A DNA stretch of 64,000 nt from Anastatus disparis (Eukaryota > Arthropoda > Insecta > Hymenoptera > Eupelmidae), in contig JAFFSR010000243.1 in NCBI GenBank assembly GCA_017163975.1, positions 2,046,001-2,110,000 on the forward strand, in the 5' to 3' direction. How positions within the stretch are numbered: the stretch's first letter is position 1; each line of letters opens with the position of its first letter. The translations under genes were made by a program, and so were the position numbers. Under the pieces are notes generated by a model, which made no database searches, was not told the DNA's origin, and worked only from the letters and a program-made list of their open reading frames with translations. This document shows, in pieces, positions 2,533 to 30,060 of this stretch.

Positions 2533-5500
2533 ACTTTACACTATACAGTGTCCCCCTCTTCACCACGCTCTATCGGGGGCTATGATTATGATGGCGATTT
2601 GTCGACTCACTCATCCGAAACAGATTCTGAAACGATGCAATTGGGATGTGTTGCACAGAGTATTGAAAGTTATGATTATGATGGCGATGTGTCTGCATGT
2701 TCATCTCGAACGGATTCTCAAACGATGCAAACGGGCGGTGGTGCAGCAAATATTAACGTCGAAAACGATAGTGAGAGGGATGAAGATAATATCGATGAGG
2801 GAAATAATGATGCAGAAGAAGAAGAAGCAGGTGAAATCGATGTGCGACCTCCCGGCAAAAGGTTTATTATAAATGAGAGTACACATAATTATTTAGAAAA
2901 ATATAGGGCTTATGGTAAAGAGCTTCTATTAAAATTACTTACACCTCCTCCCGATGTTAATTTAATTATTTGGCTGGAAAATGTAATGCGGGATATACAC
3001 GCGTACATAATGTCGATGGCGGGTAAAGATGATAGAATAGATATAAGTATAAAAAGTAATAATTTTGCTCGCGGAGCAGCAGGATTGTCGCTTCGACCTG
3101 TAAATAATTTTTTTTATAATGATCTTTGGTTATTACTTGGTAGTCTAATACAAAGTAATGAACATTTCCAATTAGATGATACTTTTATTTTAACAGTAAC
3201 CACCGTAAATGTTCCGCGGGGTGAAGGAGGTGTAAGAAGAAAAAATCTCTGTATAGATGTAATCGGGTTAAAATCATTCGTTTCCATAAAAAACGATAAT
3301 AATAAATGCCTACCGAGGGCTTTGATAGTGGGTGAAGCTTATATTAAATTTAAAAATTCAGTGGAAAAAGAAGTTCGAGATATTTGGGGAAAAATTAGAA
3401 ATAGTAGAGGGGCTTCACAGAGGCAACGCGCGGATATTCTTATAACTAGCGCCAACGTTGAAATTCCCGAAAATGGCTGCGGTATAGAGGAAATAGAGAA
3501 GTTTCAAACATACTATACGATGCGCGGAATAGCTATTGTTATTTATGATGAATCAACTTTTGGGTGTGGGGAGCCACCATTTTTCGACGGTCGGCCGTAT
3601 GTAACGCACAATAAAAATTCAATCATTAACCTTTTATATAACAATCATACTTGACATTTTGACACTATTTTAAATTCAACTGGCAACGCTAAAAGTAAAT
3701 TTTTCTGCGAATACTGTAACATTAAATATTCTCTTGTAAATATGCGTAAGTGTTCGTCGATTTGCTCTAGCTGCTTTGTATCACCACCTTGTGAAACTGA
3801 AAACGTTGAATCAATAAAATACAACGATTGCAATAGAGATTCTTTTGACAAATTTGTTTTAACAAGCATTAAACAGTCGGTAGTTACAAAAAAAATAACA
3901 AAAAATGATGCGATGTTGTCCAAGCGTGTCCTCGTTGCTGTAAAAAAATTAATAAAATTAAAGATAAGTACGTATGCGGGGTTAATTGGTGCAGCACATG
4001 TCGTCGAAAACATAGAGTGAACGATTTATGTTATATACCGACAATTCCATCTGATAAAACGAAAAGCGGTCAATCAAGCGATACATCAAAAACGAAAAGA
4101 AATTTATTTATATTCTACGATTTCGAAACCGGACAAGACACATCGTATAGGGATAGCTCCAGTATAAAAATACATGTACTAAACCTCTGCGTAGTACATC
4201 AGGTATGCGAGGGCTGTATGGATGTCGAGAATATAGGTACTTTTTGCTCTACATGCGGTGTACGTGAGTTTGTTTTTTAGGATGATCCGGTCAAGCGTTT
4301 ACTCGAAATTGCTATTCGTAAAAAAACGGGTTTTAAGCAAATAATATGTGTTGCGCTTAATTCTGGAGGCTTCGACGGTCAATTTATTTTAAAAGAAATT
4401 GTAGAAAATACATCTTACGAACTTAGCGTAATTTTAAACGGGCAAAGTATTATCATGCTTCAATGTGGCAAGACTAAGTTTATCGATAGTTTAAACTACT
4501 TCCACATGAGGTTGAGCGGGCTTCCAAAGGCTTTTGGCTTACCACCATCTAGTAAAAAAGGTTATTTTCCACATCTGTTTAATACACAGGAAAATCAAAA
4601 TTACAGAGGACCTTTACCAGATGTTAAATTTTACAGTATAGACACAATGCCTCTTTCCGAGAGAGTTGAATTCTTGACGTGGTATAACGAGAATGTAGGT
4701 AACTGTGAATTCGATTTTAAACGTGAAATCGTAGAATATTGTCGTGTGGACGTAGAAATTTTAAGGCGATCGTGTATAGCCTTCAGAAAGATATTTCTAG
4801 AATGCGGGAAAACATGCCCTTTTACGGAAGCTGTAACTATAGCATCCGCGTGTTCAACAGTATATAGAAAAAATTATTTACAAAAAAATACTATCGGTGT
4901 TATACCATCCGCTGGTTATCGACGGGGTGACAAGCATTCGCCAAAATCCCTAGAATGGTTAGTGCAGTGTGAACGCGAACACGGTAGAGAAATAGCTCAC
5001 GCTGGTAGAGTACGTGAAGTCATGCTACCAGAGAGATTTCGCGTTGACGGTTTCTTAGCAGCAGATCAAAATTTACCGAATCAAAAGGGTATTGTATTCG
5101 AGTATCAGAGTTGCTTCATCCACGGTTGTCCCAAATGTTTTTCAAATAATCGTGAGCAGCAATTGCCTTACGGTCGCACATTTACCGAAGTTTTTGAAAA
5201 CACAGTAAGGAAAATAGAAAAAATAAAATCATTCGGCTACGAAGTTCGCGAGATATGGGAATGTGATTCGATCGTATCAAAAGCTCGATATTAAAAATTA
5301 CGTTAGTTATCACCCCATAATGCTGCATATAACTTTGGATCCACGGGATGCATTTTTCGGCGGTAGAACGGAAAATTTTGTCACTCAGTGCAGAGTTGGT
5401 GAGGGAGAAAAAATTAAATATATGAATATTTGCTCTCTCTACCCTTACGTGTGTAAGCTCGGGCGATTTCCTCTCGAGCATCCGCGTATTTTACTCGAAG

Positions 5501-6818
5501 AAGAGTGTAAAAAACTGACATCAGGTAACAATAACGATTTATCAGGTGTCGAAGGTTTAATTAAATGTAAGGTGCTACCACCTCGTAATTTATATATACC
5601 GCTGCTACCTATTAAAATGCACAATCGACTACTTTTTGCACTATGTCGCTCTTGCTGTGAAGAAATGCGTCAAGGAGATTGTAGTCATGAAAATGTAGAA
5701 GATCGTGAATTCACAGGTACATGGGTTGTCGATGAAATGCGTAAAGCCGTTGAACTAGGGTATCGTATAACTGAAATATATATCATTTGGCAATACGAAA
5801 TGACGCAGTTCGACCAAGCGACTGCAAGTGGTGGACTCTTTGCTAAATACGTAAACATCTTTTTAAAGATCAAACAGGAGGCTAGCGGTTGGCCTTCTTG
5901 GTGTATCGATGACGCTAATAAAGATCAATATATCAAACAGTATGAAATAGATGAAGGTATTCGTATGGATAAGGAGAAGATTAAGAAAAATGCAGGGTCA
6001 AGAGCTGTTGCAGAACTCTGTCTCAATTCCTTCTGGGGTAAATTTGAACAGCGTAGTAATTTAAAGCAAATGGATATTATAAAGTTACGAGAAGCACTCT
6101 TGAAACTTCTTACAGCAGCCGATAAAAAAGTGTACGATATACTTGCTGTGAATGATGAAATTTTGTATGCCAACTGGCAATACAAAGAGGAAGCATCGCC
6201 TACTGCAGCATATACAAATGTTTTTATTGCCGCTTATACGACGGCTCAAGTTAGATTAAAATTTTATGAGGATCTAGAAAAATTAGGGGGGCGCGTTTTA
6301 TATACTATACGGACTCGTGTATTTTTACATCCGAAGATAATGAAATCGGAGAATATAATCCGGTCGAGGGTACAAAGCTCGGTGACATGACCGACGAGTT
6401 AACAGCCAATGGAAAGGGTGCGTATATACAACATTTTATTTCAGGGGGTCCGAAATTTGACGCTTATAGCGCTGTAAACCTTAATGGCGAAATATTTGAA
6501 TGTTGTAAGGTTGAGGGTATAACTTTAAATTTATCTAATGGGTTGAAAATAAATTTTGAAAGCATCAATGAATTGATTATTGATGCATTTCGCAGTACAT
6601 CAAATCCCGATAATGATTATGAAAATTAAATAGATGATGAAGTCGAGAGAGAAAATCAACCATGTGAAAAAATTAAATTAAATTTTAAAAGTATACAGCG
6701 TACAAATATGCATGAGGTTGTTACACGTCCAGAATCTAAAACTTGTTGCGTGGTTCTGAAAAAGAGACGTTATATTGATCCTAGACTTTCTCTACCATTT
6801 GGTTATAAGAAAACTTGA
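2533..6818 (+). pseudogene. polB: Protein-primed family B DNA polymerase of a Maverick/Polinton, broken
   Basis: Replicates the element's DNA from a protein primer. The first frame (to 3654) has an acidic N-terminus with two copies of a YDYDGD-containing repeat, then a conserved N-domain with NNKCLPRALIVG. A Cys/His-rich zinc-binding region follows (3700-4060). Exonuclease motifs are YDFETG (about 4120), NSGGFDGQF (about 4361) and YCRVDVE (about 4738). Polymerase motif A is at 5425 (NICSLYPYVCK, where the family has Asp first), motif B is LNSFWGKF (about 6023), and motif C (YTDS) is near 6302, at a frameshift. Breaks: TGA 3652, a shift at about 3860-3930, TAG 4278, shifts at about 5270-5290 and about 6300, and TAA 6627. 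The end is at TGA 6816, after a typical basic tail. No ATG opens the first frame, so the start is lost or lies in an upstream exon. Family assignment is secure; the copy cannot be functional. Confidence 0.93.
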
Positions 6819-19238: not shown

Positions 19239-21813
19239 CTATTTTATCTGGTGAATTAAGATTTTCTTATTTTTTCTTGTGTTTGATATAGTGTACATTG
19301 GCTGTGGTTTTTTTATATTATGACCACAAAGTTGATAAAATAAATAATTGTGTATTTGCAGAATATTCTTAAATCCCTCTGATAAATTTCTTGATACAAA
19401 TTCTATTTTGTACTTGACAGAATCTGACTTTATTCTCTTCAACACTGCAATAAATAAATATGTTTAATTTAATCATGAAAAAAAGAAAATTATAATTAAA
19501 AAATTGTATATTAAGGTAGTTTTATTGGTCCAGTGGTTCTCATTGTGAAGTAATATGTTTCTTACAAATTCACACTATACGAAAGAGAAATTGGTTGAAT
19601 TCTGTGTTTGCACAATAATTCAAAAACATGATTGTGCGCAGAATCTGTAAGTATACCCAATACAAATCGTAAGAAGCATGTTTACGTGTAAATTAATATA
19701 GAGTAAGGACATTATTTTCCTTTTATTTCAGAATTGAGGGTCGATTGCTATAATCTACAAGGTATCATTTTAATGTTTGAGATCTGAAGTATAATATATT
19801 TCAATTTCTTTAAAATCTATAGAAAACTTTTTACACAATCTTATAAAATGTTACGTTTCAAGCGCTTCGCTCATATACTCTCATGTTAAATTCAGCAAAG
19901 TTTAAACTAAAATATCTAAAAGATGAAGGTGGATATCCACCCAAATCAAAATACCATTGTAAAGCGTAAATCTTAATTTACAACATATTTCAATTTCAAA
20001 AAATTCTATAGAAAAGTGAAAAACCAATAGAACTACCTTAACTGCAATAAAGGCTTATGTAAAAATGCTAAATTCAAGTACCTTCGAAAATTATACATTC
20101 CGCATCAGCGAACATTTGAACTCCATCGAGTTCTTTTTTAATATTAATTTTATGTAAAAGAAATTTTTAATTTTTTTTTCTTTTTGTCTTATTGTATGTC
20201 TATATGTAATTGAAAGATCTAATAATAAATAATGATATTCTTTTAAATTGTCATCATAAAGAGTTTCCAAAATACTTTGTTTAGTACAGCGAGATATTCT
20301 TTTTACACTAGTCATGAACTTGTTTAAATCAAAATTCTTATCTGTTATTGCATTTAAAATAATTAAATTTTTAACTTAATTAATGATTGTTCGCTGTTAT
20401 CATCTGAGAAAAAAATTCTTTGCCACATTACTTTTCCTAAAACATTATTTTAAGGAATCCTAATATTTACTAATAAAATATACCTTTTTGCTTGAAAAAC
20501 ATTACTACATCTTCAGACAGCTTTTCACGTAGTTTAACTATATTTGAAATAATATTAAATTAATATAATTCATTTAATATTATGAACAAAGAAATAAATA
20601 AATAATCTTCATTAAACAAAGGTAATATATAATTATACTATTTTAGAAAATCTTGATGAGGGAGACTAATAAATTTCCCAGAATGCAGACTTTAAATTTT
20701 GAATTAACTCTTCTTATATCTTGATTCGTTAAAGATTATTTTATTTATCTATAAAATTCATTAAATTTATTAAACATAAGCAATGTAAAAGAATTGTTTT
20801 ATTCACCTGAATTTTGGCACTTTTTTCTTTTAATGGATATTTTGCGATTTTGAGAAAGATTTGGCATTAAATTATTTTTAACATCTAATTCAGTTGTAAA
20901 AACATCAACTGGTGTGTTTAGATATTTTTTATTCACAATACAATCAAAGTTATTTTGACGAAATTTCGATGCACTTATTTCATTAATTGTGCATCCTGTA
21001 AAAATTTCTTGAATTTCTTCATTACTCACTATTGAATCATTTGATAGTAACTTCTTTATTTCATCAACAATTTCTTGTCTATTAAATGATAGTGCATTAA
21101 TTAAATATTGCATCATCCACTTTTCATATTGATTATTTTTAATGTTATAAATGTTATATATCATCGTTTTTCTTATATTTAAAAGAATATTGTAATTTAT
21201 ATTTTTGACAAATTGGTTTATTTCATTTTTAATATCAATATTCATCATTACTGGAACAAGTTTTTCTTTATAATTCAACCATAGCTTCAATTTAGGTGCA
21301 GTGATTATGTTGTTTGATTCTAAAAAAATAAAATATGCAGTGAAATATACATAAAAATTATCTTGTCTTTTATAAAAAAAAATATGTTTATTAAATAAAT
21401 GATTATAAAAAATATAATTTACCTGAAACATTTTCAGTGATGACATTTAAGTATTGCTGTAAAAAGTATTGAACATTTTCTTGGTATTTTTTTCTATTAC
21501 CATATTTAGGATAAATTTCGGTACTTAAATTCTTCAAATCTTTAGGAGAAATGGAACCATTGTCAATACGAATTTTATTTAATTGTGAATAATATATCAA
21601 CTTTTTATACAAATTACTGTGCCACTCTAATCCAGTTCTGCGTATATACTGATATTCCATTTTGTTTTTAATGTCCAAAATATATATTATTTTAGAATAT
21701 ATATAACTGGAATATAAATTATAATGATAATTACAATTGAGGTCATTACACCAATAATATTGTAGAAATTTAACTGTCAGTAATTGGATAGGATTTAATC
21801 TCACTTTTTTCAT
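19239..21813 (-). CDS. Four-exon gene of unknown function, with a one-base A-run deficit
   Basis: Exons on the minus strand are 21813-21423, 21319-20807, 20341-20082 and 19444-19239. Splice signals are GTAAAT/TTTTTTTAG, GTGAAT/ATAACAG and GTACTT/TATTGCAG, and all three introns are phase 1. The product would be about 456 residues, Asn/Ile/Lys-rich, with long helices (for example EIVDEIKKLLSNDSIVSNEE) and a basic stretch ISIKRKKCQNS at the exon 2 end. Exon 3 changes frame in an A6 run at about 20130, where one more A would restore continuity; this is either a sequencing error or a mutation. I do not recognise a family. A MITE sits in intron 3. The gene is divergent from the transposase-like gene at 22.9 kb, so it could be a host gene or a second gene of that transposon. 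Confidence 0.55.
19511..20041. mobile_element. TTAA-flanked MITE, family C, in intron 3
   Basis: Ends TTAAGGTAGTTTTATTGGT (19511-19529) and ACCAATAGAACTACCTTAA (about 20023-20041) are inverted repeats with one mismatch. It is 531 bp with no coding capacity. It lies inside the third intron of the minus-strand gene without disturbing either splice site. Confidence 0.82.
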
Positions 21814-22898
21814 TACTTTTTAATCTTCTAATTTTTAGGATATCTAATTACAGTTTATTATCATATTAATAAAATTACTATTTTTCTTTTTAATTCCGTA
21901 ATTATTTTTATTCAACTGAATATAACCAATAATTATGACTAATTTGGATATCTTTTTCATAACAAATCCAATTAATTTACATATACAATTTTATGATTAC
22001 TTATTTCTATTTACCAGATAATAGATTAAAAAAATATGCATGCTCACCTAATAAAGACTTCAAAAATTTTTCCACCGTCATGACTAGTTTAGTATTAATG
22101 ATTTTCACTGTAGGAATAATTAATTAATATAGTAACTATCTTAGGTATTCTTTTTGCTGCAATATCAGATTAAAAAATATTTTGTCTTCAGGTTCCTTTC
22201 ATAATAACACAGATAAATGCTTGGATTTATTTTAAATGTTCCAAGGAAAATTTTCCTTCCTAAAACAAAAATTATAAGCTTATACTCAATTTTTAAATAT
22301 CTAGAAATTATATACAACTTTCAATTTATTACTAAATAAATTTTGCTCGTTTCTTTGAACGACTGTAAATAATGATTACTAGATCCTTATTGTAAAAAAG
22401 TAACCTAACCTAAATCGAGCTTTTGAATATAGATAGTTTTTGATAACTTACATATAAATACATTCTTTTTTTACAATAATGAAAATTGAGATAAATCAAT
22501 TTTCATATGAATGAAACATTTTAAACAATAAGTTTTTAATTTTAAAAAGTTGAGATTATTTTTTAATTGTTTGTTTTTTCCCGCTTTCTAACTGATACCG
22601 AAAAATATTTTTATGACAGTCATGAAACAAGAATGACTGTTATTAGTTTAAATTTGAAAATGTAAAACCAAAAGAAGAGCTTATTTTAATACAAGTATTA
22701 AAATGAATGCTAGTTAGTGCTAGCTAGTCATTTTACTTTTTTTATTCAAGTTCTTGTATAAAAAATAATTTTAAACAATTATTTTTAAGGTATAAAATTA
22801 TAAAAACATTATTTAAAATATAATAATAAAATACTTATAGAAAAAGTCTGTTTTTTTTTTTTAACATTTTGTCTCGCTAAATAATATAAATTTTGAAG
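21814..22898. other. Intergenic region between two divergent genes
   Basis: About 1.1 kb of AT-rich sequence between the minus-strand four-exon gene and the plus-strand transposase-like gene. It would hold both promoters if the pair belongs to one element. No clear TATA/initiator pair or terminal repeat was recognised. Confidence 0.4.
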
Positions 22899-25800
22899 AT
22901 GCCTGGAAGAAAGGCTGCTGTTACTTCAAAAGAAATATTGGAACACCTAATTAATTTTGATATTTATAATCATACTGAAAATACAATATTAAAAAGTCGA
23001 AATGATAATATGTGGCTTGAAATTTGTAATTGTGTGAATAATTTAATTAAACCGGTTGCTTTATATATATCTGTATTTCAAAATAGACATAATATTCATA
23101 CCCTTTATAGAAAATCAAAAGGCTTATCAAATTTACTAGATATCAAAGAAGAAAAATTCAAACAATTAAGAGAATATATAGATAAAAGTTATGAAAGCAG
23201 TCAAGATAGCGATACAGAACTTTATCCAATAAAAAAACGAAAAGTGAGCAATATAAGAAATAAATTACAATTCAATATAATTTTAACATTGGAAGAATGG
23301 AACTTAATATGTCCAATAAATGTTAATTGTACTGATAGTAGTGAAAAAAAAGTTTTAAAAGAGGGATAAACAGACGTAATAAGAGATAAAATTTGGGAGG
23401 CAAAAAAGTTACCTTGCAGCTATAGCTTCAAAAGGCATACAGTAGAAAATATATATCCATATATAGAGATAGAAGGTTCATGTACTTCATGTGAAGTTGA
23501 AATTTATGTACTATACGAAAAAAAGCCAAATTCTGAAGAACCTATAAAATTCACTGTTATTACTACAGATTCTACAGATATTCCACATAGTAAAAAAACT
23601 CGCTTATAAAAAAAACAAAAACTTCAAATAGAAAAAGAAGTTTTGCATAAATTACCCAAACAATGGAGAACAGAGCAAGCAAAAATTAAAATGGAACATG
23701 GAAATCCTGAACCAGCAACTTTATACAATTTAAAGCAATTACAAAGAGCAAGACAAAATGCAAAATGCAAACAGTTGGGGTTACTGCCTAATCAAAATCT
23801 TTTTGATTCCTTGTCACAAATGAAAAATAATCCAGAGTTCAATAAATTTATTAAAGATATTGGCTTCAACAGATTTTTCATTTTATACTGGTCACCAGAA
23901 CAAATAATCCATAACGAAATAATGGAATTCCTCAATAATCCTTTATCATTAGATTCAACAGGCTCAATGACACTTAAAAGATATGGAGATTCTAGCCACG
24001 TTTTTTTAACAGTTTTATTAACATATATTGAGGGAATGATCGTACCTGTTACACAATGTATGTCAGAGCGTAATGACACTCCTTTTATAAATTTTTGGTT
24101 GCATAGTTGGTTACAATCAGGTGCTGATGTTCCCAAAGAACTTGTAACAGATATGGATAAAGCTTTGCAAAATAGGGCTAGTCTGGCTTTTAATTCATTA
24201 AACTTTAGTGATTATAATGACGTGTGTTTCCATATTTTATTAGGTGAAAGAATTAGCACTAACAAGGAGAGTGTTTCACCTTCGGATCACCATTTTTGCT
24301 CAAATTTTAGGAATGTTTTCTGAATGCAGAAATATGGAGAAAGCCAAAATTTTAGAGGCCAATGCTCAATATTTCCCTAGTTACAGACCATCGAAGAAAA
24401 TCACTAAAAAGGTTACTAGATTTTCAAACGCTTATAGTTCCTCAGAATTATTAGCTAGAAGCTTAAACCTTTTTTTAAATGGAAGCTGAGCTCAAATCCT
24501 TTCGAAATAGCACTTATACTATCTCAAAACATTATTTTTTCCCAAAGTTAGAGCGTAATAAAGATTGGACCTGAATTTTTTGTTTAAAACATTAATAAAT
24601 AATAAAAGCTAAAATTGGGTTCAATCTTCATTGTGCTATAACTTTGGGAAAAAATAATATTTCAATATGCTATAACTACTATTTCGAAAGGATTTGAGCT
24701 CAGCTTCCATTTAAAAAAAGGTTTAAGCTTCTAGCTAATAATTCTGAGGAACTATAAGTGTTTAAAAATCTAGTAACTTTTTTAGTGATTTTCTTCGATG
24801 GCCTGTAACTAGGGAAATATTGAGCGTTGGCCTCTAAAATTTTGGCTTTCTTCATATTTCTGCATCTAGAAAATATTCCTAAAATTTGAACAAAAACGGT
24901 GACCCGAAGGTGAAACACTCTCCTTGTAAGTTGAATACTCAATTAAGGACTGATATTGCTCACTTAATACATGCAGTTACTCGTTGGCCATGTTTTTTTA
25001 CCAGTAACAAATCATCAAAACTACTTTTTAGAAAATGTATTGGATACATGACAACAATTGATGAAATTGAGATTTTCAAATACTTTTTAGAACAAGTATT
25101 GACAGTCTCTTACAGCAAAAATCATACGTCTGACTGTGCACTAGCATTAACATTTTCAGTTAAAACTCTTGAAATATACAAATTAATGGAAGACTTTTCA
25201 AATATTGAAATGGCAGAAAACAATTTACTTGTTTCAAATGATTTAGAAGAAAATATAGATGAAAGTGAAAGATTGGCTACAAAGTACTTAAAAAATATAG
25301 AAACTGAAATTTTAAGCATTGTGGAGAATTTAGATAAATCATTTGTTGGTATACAATCAAATGATCATTATTTGCCTCAGTTAGGAAATAGATTATTAGA
25401 TTTGTGCAAGGACTTCCCTAGCTGGACGAATGTCATGAACAAACATTTTAATAACCCAAGAGTTGTAGCAACTTCTGCTAGATTCGAAACTTACTTTGGA
25501 GAACTCAAAAAAAACTCTAGAAAATATGGTTTTAAGAGAAGATAAAGTTTTAGTGATACATTGTCGTAATCTTGAATCTTACATGATATTAGCTCGTGCA
25601 GCTTTAGACAATCTCAAAAAAAATCAAAATTACAGTCTCAAAAAATAAAAAGGGTGAATAAAAAATTCTTGCTAGAAACTGAACAATGGATGAATAAGCA
25701 CAGTGAGGTAGAGCAAATAGAGATTTTGGATGACAGTTTAATAGGAATAGAAGAATGTAAAGAAAATGTTACATTTAAAAACACAGAATCTATTGACACT

Positions 25801-27054
25801 AATTTGTTCAAGGAAAATGATAAAGATAAAAATTTACAAACTGCAGTGAGTAATACAGAGATCGAAAGATTAGAAGATGATCACTATTACGAAAATACGT
25901 TAAAAATTGAAAACAATAGTATAATTTCAGATTCGACTATCATAGATCATGATTATGTAAATTTAACAAACATTATAGAGCTTAACTCTATTCGAAAAGT
26001 TGATTCTATTCATCCTACAGAATGTAAAGAGAATAAACAAATTAATTTCACTGAACCCTTTGAAAAAGATTTAATAAAGAATAGAGGTATTTATGTCTCA
26101 CCTGATCCAGAACTTCTTTTACGATTGCAAAAACCAGATAATGCACACAAAGGTCAAGGTGTTATAAAAAATGCCAATAAAATGCAACCGAGATTTATAA
26201 TGAAACAAACAATAACTTTTTTTAATACTTGTACATTTGACTTTTTAACTGAGATATTTAGTAGTGCTTGTTGTAATATACGTACTCTTTATAAAGTATT
26301 ACAAAAAAGTAAAAACGTAGTTAAGTAAAAAAAAAGACAATTATAAATGTTATGCGACAACAGTATTTGATTATGCAATAAATGGTATAAATACTTTATT
26401 ATATACAAAAATTGCTCATTTATTGTATTCCATATTTTCAGTAAAAGATGGAATAATAGATTGTAATACAAATATATCTGCTCTTTTATCAACCTTGTGG
26501 TCGCCACATGAAACAACTACAGAGACGTTAAACTGTACAATATGTCACACACAAGAAGAAATAAGAAAATCATTTATATATCTCCCGAATTTAAAAATAG
26601 CTTGGTGCGACAGATATAATAGTTTAAAAAAACAAATAAATAATTATTTTAAAAACAATACACTTTTTTGTAGGAACTGTCATCAAATGAGTGTATCAAG
26701 TAGTCACAAATTAGGACCTTTTTTATATATAGACTGTGATGAAGCCTATAGACCATCTTATTATGCAAAAAACCTCAATATTAACGGAGAGACATAAAGG
26801 AAATCCCAGATGAAATTCATGTAAATAATAAAAAGTTTTTTTTATGTGGTATTGTAAAATATTCACCTCCAATAGATAGCGATGGAATAGGCCATTATAT
26901 AGCGCTTTGTTGAAGTATTCATGGCATTTGGGAAGAAAAGAATGATTTGCACACCTATAAAAAAAAATTAAATAAAAAACGTGATTCAGTATTGCCAGAC
27001 ATTAAAATAAGTGGCATTTTTTATGCTAAATATGATCATTATGATAAAATGTAA
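22899..27054 (+). pseudogene. DDE-transposase-like protein with C-terminal USP-like protease domain, broken
   Basis: ATG 22899 opens MPGRKAAVTSKEILEHLI, a small likely DNA-binding region. In-frame stops occur at 23367 and 23607. The transposase-like core has LSLDSTGSM (about 23940), VTDMDKALQNRASLAF (about 24143) and LRTDIAHLIHAVTRW (about 24943), candidate acidic positions of a MULE-like RNase H fold. The 664-bp insertion at 24263-24926 interrupts it. Frame changes follow near 25540, 25640 and 26320. The C-terminal part has NTCTFDFLTEIF (26224 on), two C-x2-C-H zinc-type pairs (about 26535 and about 26671) and GIGHYIALC (about 26884), followed by a TGA. These resemble the Cys and His boxes of ubiquitin-specific proteases. 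Neither domain was tested by search. Confidence 0.65.
24263..24926. mobile_element. 664-bp fold-back element inserted in the transposase-like gene
   Basis: Begins CAAGGAGAGTGTTTCACC and ends with its reverse complement; arms of about 250 bp are near-identical. It is flanked by TAA (24260-24262 and 24927-24929), a 3-bp target duplication. Removing the insert and one TAA returns the host frame to the next segment, and the 667-bp length explains the frame change across it. Each arm contains the same 80-residue open frame, in opposite orientation, which is probably incidental. Confidence 0.92.
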
Positions 27055-27257
27055 AAGATTCCATTACCTTTATTAGTGCATGCATACTTTATATTTTTTG
27101 GTTTATTTCTGCTATGCTCCAACATTTTTAGTCCTTGAAAAATAAGTTAAAATAGAATTGTTTTTTTATTTATAAAGTTATTGAAATTAAATAAAATATA
27201 ATTTGTTTATTTTGTATGTGAAAAAATGTATTTTTATTAATTTAAATAAAGAATAAT

Positions 27258-27452
27258 CATTCCTACTTACTTATTATTCCAACAATAATGACTATTAGAA
27301 CTTTTAAAAACATTGTTACTCCAGTAACGTTAGCATATTCAGCCATAATGATTCCTTTTTTTTTTTAAATAATTTAAATAAAGAATAACTATTAGTACTT
27401 TTAATAACATTGTCACTCCAGAAACGTTAGCATATTCAGCCATAATAATTCC
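27258..27452. repeat. Direct duplication of about 95 bp
   Basis: Two copies share AAATAAAGAATAA, then AACATTGT-ACTCCAG and CGTTAGCATATTCAGCCATAA. They are separated by a poly-T run, with small differences. Nothing coding is seen from 27055 to 27750. Confidence 0.75.
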
Positions 27453-27749
27453 TTTTTTTTAAAATGCACCAGCAAAAATATTTTATGATGACACTTGACA
27501 CTTACATTGCATTTCACAATGATCAATACGGAAGGATGACTATGGGAGAAAAAGTTATAAATAAGCAGTTTAATACAATTAATAAAATAAAAATTATTAA
27601 AATTTTTTTTTGATTTGTATATCATAAATGAATGTAGTTGATTATAAAATTATATAAAACTATCTGCTAGTCTTATATTGTATTAAAGTGAAACCACTTT
27701 TTTCTTCGTTTCTCCAGTTCTCCGGTTCTCCGCATTTTTTGAATGTGAC

Positions 27750-28085
27750 TTTCTTGGGCCTTATATTTTCTTTGCCCTTTCATTTTCTTGGGCCTTTTAT
27801 TTTCTTGGGCCTTATATTTTCTTGAGCCTTATATTTTCTTGGGCATTATAATTTTCTTGGGCCTTGTAATTTTTTGGACTCAATATTTTTTTGGGCCTAA
27901 TATTTTTTTGGACTCAATATTTTTTTGGGCCCAATATTTTTTCGGTCTCTATAATTTTTGGGCCTTTTATTCTATTGAGCCTGATACTTTCTTGGGCCTT
28001 ATATTTTTTTGGGCTTTATAATTTTTTGGACTTAATATTTTTTCGGGCCTTATATTTTCTTGGGCTTTATATTTTTTTGATTCCT
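27750..28085. repeat. Degenerate minisatellite with CTTGGGCC-type unit
   Basis: About 18-bp units of the form TTGGGCCTTATATTTTC are repeated roughly eighteen times with drift. The hydrophobic Phe/Trp/Leu frames predicted here come from the repeat and are not genes. Confidence 0.9.
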
Positions 28086-28261
28086 ACATTTTTTTAGTCA
28101 ATATGTTTTCTAACGTAGCTTTTCATCCAAGCCTGTATACTTTTACATTGGATTCTTCAGTGGAGCGTATTTTTATAATGTTTTATACAGGCTCCGCTCC
28201 AGATGCTGTAATATTTTTTTTTATTTCAAATGCAATGTTTTAACGTCTCATCCTTACACTA

Positions 28262-28625
28262 GACATTGCAAATCTAATAGCGCATCTCCATATGCAGCCG
28301 ATTAAACATAGCGTCTCAATATGCAGCCGTTTAAACAGCGCATCCCCATATGCAGCCGATTTAACAGCGATTTCAATATGCAGCCGATTCAACAGCGCAT
28401 CCCAATATGCAGCTGATTCAACAGCGCATCCCAATATGCAGCCGATTTAACAGCGCATCCCAATATGCAGCCGATTCAACAGCGCATCCCAATATGCAGC
28501 CGATTCAACAGCGCATCCCAATATGCAGCGGATTCAACAGCGCATCCTCATATGCAGCCGATTCAACAGCACGTTTCCTTATGTAGCCGATTTAACAGCG
28601 CGTCCTTTATACAGCCGATTCAACA
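28262..28625. repeat. 29-bp minisatellite, about 12 units
   Basis: The unit is close to CAGCCGATTCAACAGCGC followed by ATCCCAATATG. The centre is homogeneous and both ends degenerate. Unit length is mostly constant, which points to tandem expansion. Confidence 0.95.
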
Positions 28626-28857
28626 TCATATTAAACTATTTTGAAAGCGTCAGTTGATATTTATTTTTATTAAATATCATATATTTTATTATATTTCGAG
28701 TTCAACTATTAACACAATCTAAAACATACATATTGAATACATATTGACATATTCTTTATAATATCTCTTTATAAACAATGTTTTTTGTATATATTGTGTT
28801 CTGATCATTTTTATTTTCTCCGTTGACAATAGCGTAGTCACCTAAATATAATTTTTA

Positions 28858-30060
28858 ATTGTTTTTAAATTTCGTCCTTGAAAGAGCAACATATAATTGC
28901 CCATGACTGAAAACTGGTGACGGCAGATAAACACCAACTTTTTCATAAGATTGTCCTTGTGATTTATTAATAAACATTGCAAATCCTAATCCAATAGGTA
29001 ACTGTTTTCGTTGCATATTGAATGGAATTTCTTCCGTAGATGGAGATAAATTTATTCTTGGAATGAAAACTAATTTACCTTTGTTTTGATCAGTTGCTAA
29101 TTCCGCTTGAATGGAATATTTAAGCATTTTTTTTACTATCAACCTTGTTCCATCACAAAGTCCCTTATTGACATTTAAATTTCTTAAAGGTATAATGATA
29201 GCCCCTACTTTTAAATGTAATTTATATGGTAGAAGTCCATTAGGAGTTAACTTATTTAAAAATTCTGTAGGTAACATAATATCTAAATTTTCTTTGTTAT
29301 CATTTTCAGCAGTATCAATACTCAAATATTTAACATGGTTTCCTTTTATTAAATTCAAAACATTATTATTGATTTCAGTTACATCATTATTTTTAGGAGC
29401 CAAAATAACTTTTTTCGTTATATTCGTATTGTCTATTTTTATTGTTTTTCCGAATATTTCTTCGACAAGATTTTCTTAAATGATAAAATTATCTGGTATA
29501 TCACTTACTTCATTATCATCTTCAAAAACATCGCGGCGTTTTCTTTTTCCGATGTCTAATAACCATTGTTTAAAATTATTATCATCATCCGAAACTCGCA
29601 GATTTTCATTTAACTTCATTTGCTTAAAATTTTGCCATAATAAACTAAATTTAACTGAATTTTCAAGAATGTTCATACGACTACCATGTCGTACAATTGG
29701 TAATGTTTACCTGAAATCTCCTGATATAATTACAGTTTTACCACCGAAGGGTTGGTTTACATTGCATAAATCTTGAAAAAGACGATCAACCGCTTCAAAA
29801 GCAAATTTTAAAGTCATGGATATTTCATCCCAAATAATTATTTGTGTTTCCTTTAATTGTTTGCCTTCTGCAGAATTAGGCTTAACATCACAAGTTGTAC
29901 AATCTGTTATATTTAACGGTAGTTTAAATGTTGTATGCACGGTACTTCCATCGGCTAATGAATTCGCTGCTATACCTGTCAAAGCTACACATAAATAATG
30001 TATGGTATAATATTTAAAATAAGCCATTAAAACATTAAGTAAATAACTTTTTCCTTAATA
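28858..30060 (-). pseudogene. Helitron PIF1-like helicase C-terminal fragment
   Basis: Minus-strand reading in one frame. There is a degraded Walker A region near 30050, then VALTGIAANSLADGSTVH, a Walker B IIIWDEISM and a VIISGDF motif. Near the end are LPIGLGFAMFINKSQGQS and HGQLYVALSRTKFKNN, the conserved 3' helicase block of Helitron Rep/Hel proteins. In-frame stops (about 29704 and about 29477) break it, with no frameshift needed. The upstream Rep domain is absent, so this is a 5'-truncated remnant. Helitron ends were not found. Confidence 0.88.

Follow-up and report, generated by a model that had tools for sequence, protein, structure and literature searches.

A decayed Mutator/IS256-like transposon in Anastatus disparis that probably encoded a transposase joined to a C19-type (USP-fold) cysteine protease

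One decayed gene on the + strand, at 22899–27054 of a 64,000-nucleotide stretch of the Anastatus disparis genome (contig JAFFSR010000243.1, positions 2,046,001 to 2,110,000; hereafter the window), carries the remains of a transposase followed by a cysteine protease domain of the C19, or ubiquitin-specific protease (USP), type. The fusion is real as judged by computation: transposase and C19 domain occur together in single open frames, with a predicted fold, a conserved Cys-His-Asp/Asn set, zinc pairs and relatives outside the genome. It is probable (roughly 0.7) that the window copy, now dead, comes from a Mutator/IS256-like DNA transposon with just one protein, composed of a DDE transposase, a long flexible linker and a C19 protease, the tethered protease deubiquitinating the transposase or nearby host proteins. 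A preliminary description of the window had placed such a fusion between these coordinates, with Cys and His boxes and zinc-type Cys pairs on the same strand after a DDE core like that of Mutator-like elements (MULEs), and had recommended a search for copies with both domains in one open reading frame (ORF) and for conserved Cys, His and Asp; all of this is borne out below.

The signal in the window exceeds chance. Two profiles were run against its 1926 ORFs, a C19-domain profile of 14 rows with the window rows left out and a full-length profile of 13 rows, none from the window. The first matched four successive ORFs (E 1.3e-35, 1.3e-16, 6.6e-13 and 9.3e-5); the second matched seven (E 3.2e-55 to 4.1e-5), with an eighth at only 0.089, and all its matches lay on the + strand in the order of the element. 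Ten shuffles of the window in two-base blocks gave top scores of 8.0 and 6.2 bits, compared with 18–184 bits for the significant real pieces. Pfam returned no usable match for window pieces and full-length relatives.

The source assembly (939 Mb, 399 contigs) yielded 16 matches to a 250-residue query and at least 50 to a 1169-residue relative, the latter count being a lower bound because just 40 of 751 candidates were scored. Uninterrupted single frames with DDE core, Cys box and His box are present at three loci: L038 (1045 residues), L040 (966 residues when counted from the ATG chosen as its start, the N-terminal piece being absent) and L032 (975 residues). At L011 a 1169-residue frame holds the DDE core and the Cys box, with the His box about 2 kb downstream. 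Outside the source genome both halves are found in P0010 (1058 residues) and in P0009 (978 residues, its end altered as judged by eye), and P0011 and P0012 comprise the transposase part only. The window copy alone, split into pieces in different frames, could be taken for a transposase relic lying by chance beside a fragment of a host USP pseudogene; the one-frame copies at three further loci and in a public protein refute this, and the domain order is identical across lineages only 28–31% identical, which leaves chance adjacency a negligible probability. Searched by itself, the DDE piece brought up one short relative among proteins, and viral contigs gave no relative to this piece or to the full alignment, whose pattern matches in 80 stretches were all unconfirmed.

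The window gene extends from an ATG at 22899 to a final stop at 27052–27054, as first delimited, and is broken by in-frame stops at 23367, 23607 and 26911 and by frame shifts near 25.5–25.65 kb, 26.32 kb and 26.80 kb. All its coding pieces are on the + strand. The N-terminal, DNA-binding-like helical piece of the transposase (22899–23366; full-length profile E 3.4e-15, profile positions 2–123), to which helices at 9–71 correspond in the model of an intact relative, ends at stop 23367. A beta-rich piece with a zinc-type C...CxxC...H arrangement (23370–23606; E 1.2e-20) ends at stop 23607, and its residues C142, C162, C165 and H197 are invariant in all four rows of one alignment. The first part of the DDE core (23610–24262; E 3.2e-55) bears the first catalytic Asp at 23952–23954 (SLDSTGS; D313 column) and the second at 24150–24152 (VTDMDKA; D383 column), and the second part (24928–25542; E 2.1e-51) bears the catalytic Glu at 25486–25488 (SARFETYF; E603 column). 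A long acidic linker follows (25576–26121, placed by profile alignment), which the model of the intact relative shows as disordered, with a predicted local distance difference test score (pLDDT) of about 25 over most of residues 644–773 of the P0006 model. The C19 domain starts at 26122–26325 with the Cys box FFNTCTFDFLTEIF and the catalytic Cys at 26230–26232 (C19 profile E 1.3e-16), continues with thumb and fingers at 26321–26794 (E 1.3e-35), including the zinc-type pairs CTIC (26534–26545) and CRNC (26669–26680), and ends with the palm at 26795–27054 (E 6.6e-13 and 9.3e-5), which contains the His box IGHYIALC with His at 26893–26895, stop 26911 and an Asn at 26941–26943 as third triad residue.

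The two parts of the DDE core are separated by an insert outside the gene proper (24263–24926, no strand), a 664-bp inverted-repeat sequence resembling a miniature inverted-repeat transposable element, which lies between two TAA copies and folds back through arms of 321 nt that are 91% complementary. A sister copy on C6 (L017), 93–96% identical to the window copy in aligned blocks, has the empty site, and the 3-bp TAA was thus duplicated on insertion. Homology between these two copies begins 17 bp upstream of the ATG (22883) and stops at 26991, with nothing detected in common further upstream; different ends, a rearrangement or a processed copy may account for this abrupt loss.

With respect to the transposase, the DDE set lies in an RNase H fold of the IS256/MULE type, which places the element with Mutator, and the spacing between the second Asp and the Glu is 220 residues. 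The best transposase among the matches listed was ISCth4, which we take to be of the IS256 family. It has in common with the window family an RNase H core with a large insertion, but it is prokaryotic and has no protease, and the 220-residue spacing belongs to the window family. The P element transposase was listed by Foldseek, yet it was missing from the 50 rows in which ISCth4 ranked best, and was set aside; among PDB sequences the full-length profile found nothing of use. Long terminal inverted repeats were found in relatives only: C280 (a 1.3-kb block at 98.4% within a 1.8-kb repeat), C374 (1.6 kb at 99.2%) and C99 (0.7 kb at 97.3%), the outer repeat ends being reached for C280 alone. None were found around the window copy within 22300–27700. 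Candidate 35-bp terminal repeats at C227 gave no convincing ends, and C227 is for this reason treated as one element from its divergent gene pair.

The predicted C-terminal domain has the right-hand fold of USPs. In its model residue C48 begins a helix (48–63) and residue H274 a strand (274–281), after which comes D289, and this order, a Cys at the start of the first helix, then the His box, then Asp/Asn, is that of C19 peptidases. A profile search with the C19 alignment reached Ubp8 at E 6.4e-7, in line with the C19-type fold first suggested. Similarly, USP30, Ubp8, USP46 and USPL1 share the fold and the succession Cys box, CxxC pairs, His box; they differ in that identity is 10–18% among the matches listed, and that here the domain is transposon-borne with an Asp three residues after the Cys. 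The Cys is present at 20 of 25 readable places, the His at 23, and Asp or Asn at 23 of 23. Two CxxC finger pairs are present in most readable rows, the deviations being L032 (pairs lost), L038 (CSC as first pair) and C76 (short of one Cys). Ulp1 (C48) proteases have the residue order His-Asp-Cys, and this family was rejected, as the Cys box stands before the His box in 9 of the 9 rows holding both (with Ser for Cys in one). A VTD (viral tegument-like) deubiquitinase was rejected too, an Asp two residues before the His being found in 0 of 11 His-box rows. Fold matches to viral USP proteins reflect the common fold only.

Some USP-fold modules, such as those of Pan2 and the yeast splicing factor Sad1, are inactive, and the domain could likewise be an inactive or purely structural module for protein binding. 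This is quite improbable: outside the partner lineage described below, almost every readable position of the triad still has its Cys, His or Asp/Asn, despite row identities of 19–35% to the first row of the alignment, and one domain with the full set is retained in each of three two-gene types. A USP-fold SUMO protease of the USPL1/C98 kind, a functional counterpart of plant MULEs with Ulp1 that would act on SUMO and not ubiquitin, is unlikely, though less so. In the fold comparison the Z score for USPL1 (described in PMC8983731) was tied with those of USPs. Against this reading, the profile reached USPs of the ubiquitin type, with no USPL1 chain listed up to E 10; Pfam UCH matches 4 of 16 rows and C98 only 1 of 16 (0.0027); and most rows have Tyr directly after the catalytic His, where USPL1 has Phe457 (PMC8983731). 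From fold, active site and tether we infer that the protease would take ubiquitin, or less probably SUMO or a different ubiquitin-like protein, off the transposase to which it is joined or off host proteins close by at the transposon ends. The transposition complex might in this way escape removal or silencing.

Several relatives contain two genes. C280 and C374 are 94–98% identical in their larger aligned blocks, and their inverted repeats of up to 1.8 kb surround two divergent genes, overlapping the last 90 bp of one. In C280 the + gene is a 698-residue transposase frame without protease domain. In the transposase part of the – gene the first catalytic Asp is absent; this gene also encodes a C19-like domain whose Cys is replaced by Ser, and a further one, this time with Cys, His and Asp, is found on the – strand in another frame. 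In the partner genes of C280 and C374 the full-set domain comes after the dead one. C374 is the more heavily damaged of the two. C6 and C99 have a Cys-bearing C19-like domain on the + gene, which is interrupted in both copies; their divergent – gene combines a degenerate transposase with a Cys-to-Ser C19-like domain. In C227 both genes have a C19-like domain with Cys, and the partner, whose first 60 codons are in another frame, has a degenerate transposase part. On C69 a fifth locus with a partner gene, L013, and the one-frame locus L038 are about 28 kb apart. P0013, from a public dataset, is a 926-residue partner with the same Cys-to-Ser change (by eye), 37% identical to P0003. In a tree of 19 rows four partner proteins fall on one side of a branch with support 100/97, the placement of C227 being less sure because of its long branch. 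All 4 partners lack the first catalytic Asp, 3 of the 4 have the second, and their Glu column is hard to align. Partner-gene queries over the 64-kb window matched the element itself and nothing else convincing.

This paralogue, which lacks the first catalytic Asp in every type and the protease Cys in two of the three, would be a structural or regulatory partner. The full set of Cys, His and Asp/Asn is kept in one or more C19-like domains of each type, though on different proteins; these three types, several of whose copies are broken, suggest that one active protease is needed per element and is able to act in trans. A further reading, put forward tentatively as slightly less likely than not, is that the family includes a two-component transposon. 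In it a working transposase would be accompanied by an ancient divergent paralogue that has no transposase active site, has in one lineage also lost the protease nucleophile, and persists as an obligatory partner; protease activity would move between the two proteins and yet be kept in each type. For a DNA transposon, a paralogue dead in both activities and kept at 37–42% identity would be an unusual arrangement, and the pair would offer built-in controls for both activities.

The following points weigh against the fusion transposon and its partner as described. The ratio of nonsynonymous to synonymous divergence (Ka/Ks) between recent copies was 0.44–0.49 for partners and 0.49–0.54 for active genes, values with only 3 to 17 synonymous changes behind them, and the ratio for other decayed pairs was 0.44, 0.71 and 1.17; misaligned or frame-shifted comparisons (L012/L014, the N-terminal part of L018/L006, and the N-terminal part of the dead gene between C6 and C99) were dropped. 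Pfam assigned no transposase family to the window pieces, P0002–P0005 or P0009–P0012, and no target-site duplication, which in Mutator elements measures 8–11 bp, was seen at C280, the sole element with both ends defined. Transposase ORFs of the same family without C19 domain exist (P0004, P0011, P0012, L037). No single sequence exceeds the Pfam C19 cutoff, which is set for single sequences (best UCH score 21.4 bits vs 23.9). The modelled C19 alignment has 16 rows, several partial and all from the source genome, and the predicted template modelling score (pTM) of the full-length model is 0.49. The zinc pairs are lost in P0008, and the Asn that usual USPs have five residues before the catalytic Cys is absent in the rows of the C19 alignment.

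A C19 domain on a Mutator-like transposase extends the known associations of transposons with proteases. Plant and animal MULEs (MuDR) with a C-terminal Ulp1 domain likewise join a Mutator-type DDE transposon to a cysteine protease of a ubiquitin-like system (mentioned in PMC2836005), but with a different fold from the C19 domain of the window element, in which the Cys precedes the His. In Ginger1, too, transposase and protease are in one protein, with OTU and Ulp1 as alternatives among related elements (PMC2836005); its transposase is Gypsy-integrase-like and its proteases are OTU or Ulp1 rather than C19. The sole transposase–C19 association found in print is Trichomonas vaginalis XP_001314237.1, transposase_11 with Peptidase C19, given one sentence (PMC2836005). 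It is a protist transposase_11, for which that sentence gives no element structure, unlike the Mutator/IS256-like core, many copies and two-gene form found here. Helentrons with VTD or OTU similarly couple a mobile element to an active deubiquitinase, sometimes with tandem domains and inactivated relatives, and protection from proteasomal degradation was suggested for the VTD enzymes (PMC9741609); unlike the window family, they are rolling-circle elements, and the Asp-x-His motif defined for VTD is absent here. The words 'protease', 'peptidase' and 'ubiquitin' do not occur in the main text of a Mutator survey (PMC6446971), and among the open-licence literature matches listed neither a C19 domain in a Mutator-like element nor a dead transposase–protease partner was found. 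Protease domains of the ubiquitin family recur in unrelated mobile elements (Ulp1, OTU, VTD), C19 on a Mutator-like transposase being a further solution, and the fusion makes it testable whether transposases must escape ubiquitin- or SUMO-dependent control.

Elsewhere in the window, two successive + ORFs at 4455–6390 match DNA polymerase type B, organellar and viral (PF03175, 1.5e-12 and 1.9e-19), which suggests a broken Polinton/Maverick-type element. Two – strand ORFs of 215 and 138 residues at 20799–21819, divergent from the element, had no significant Pfam match and no partner-gene match. Downstream of the element there are, as judged by eye, a T-rich GGGCC array at about 27740–28080 and a tandem array of a short unit with CAGCGCATCCCAATATGCAGCCGATT-like repeats at 28240–28650; pieces of a PIF1-like helicase at 28855–30054 on the – strand (PF05970 1.5e-32, PF21530 6.9e-15) are perhaps a Helitron relic. 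Adjoining the C6 element is a 791-residue ORF (C6:3460428-3462800, – strand) with a C-terminal GIY-YIG-like motif seen by eye, presumably, from the same inspection, a Penelope-type retroelement.
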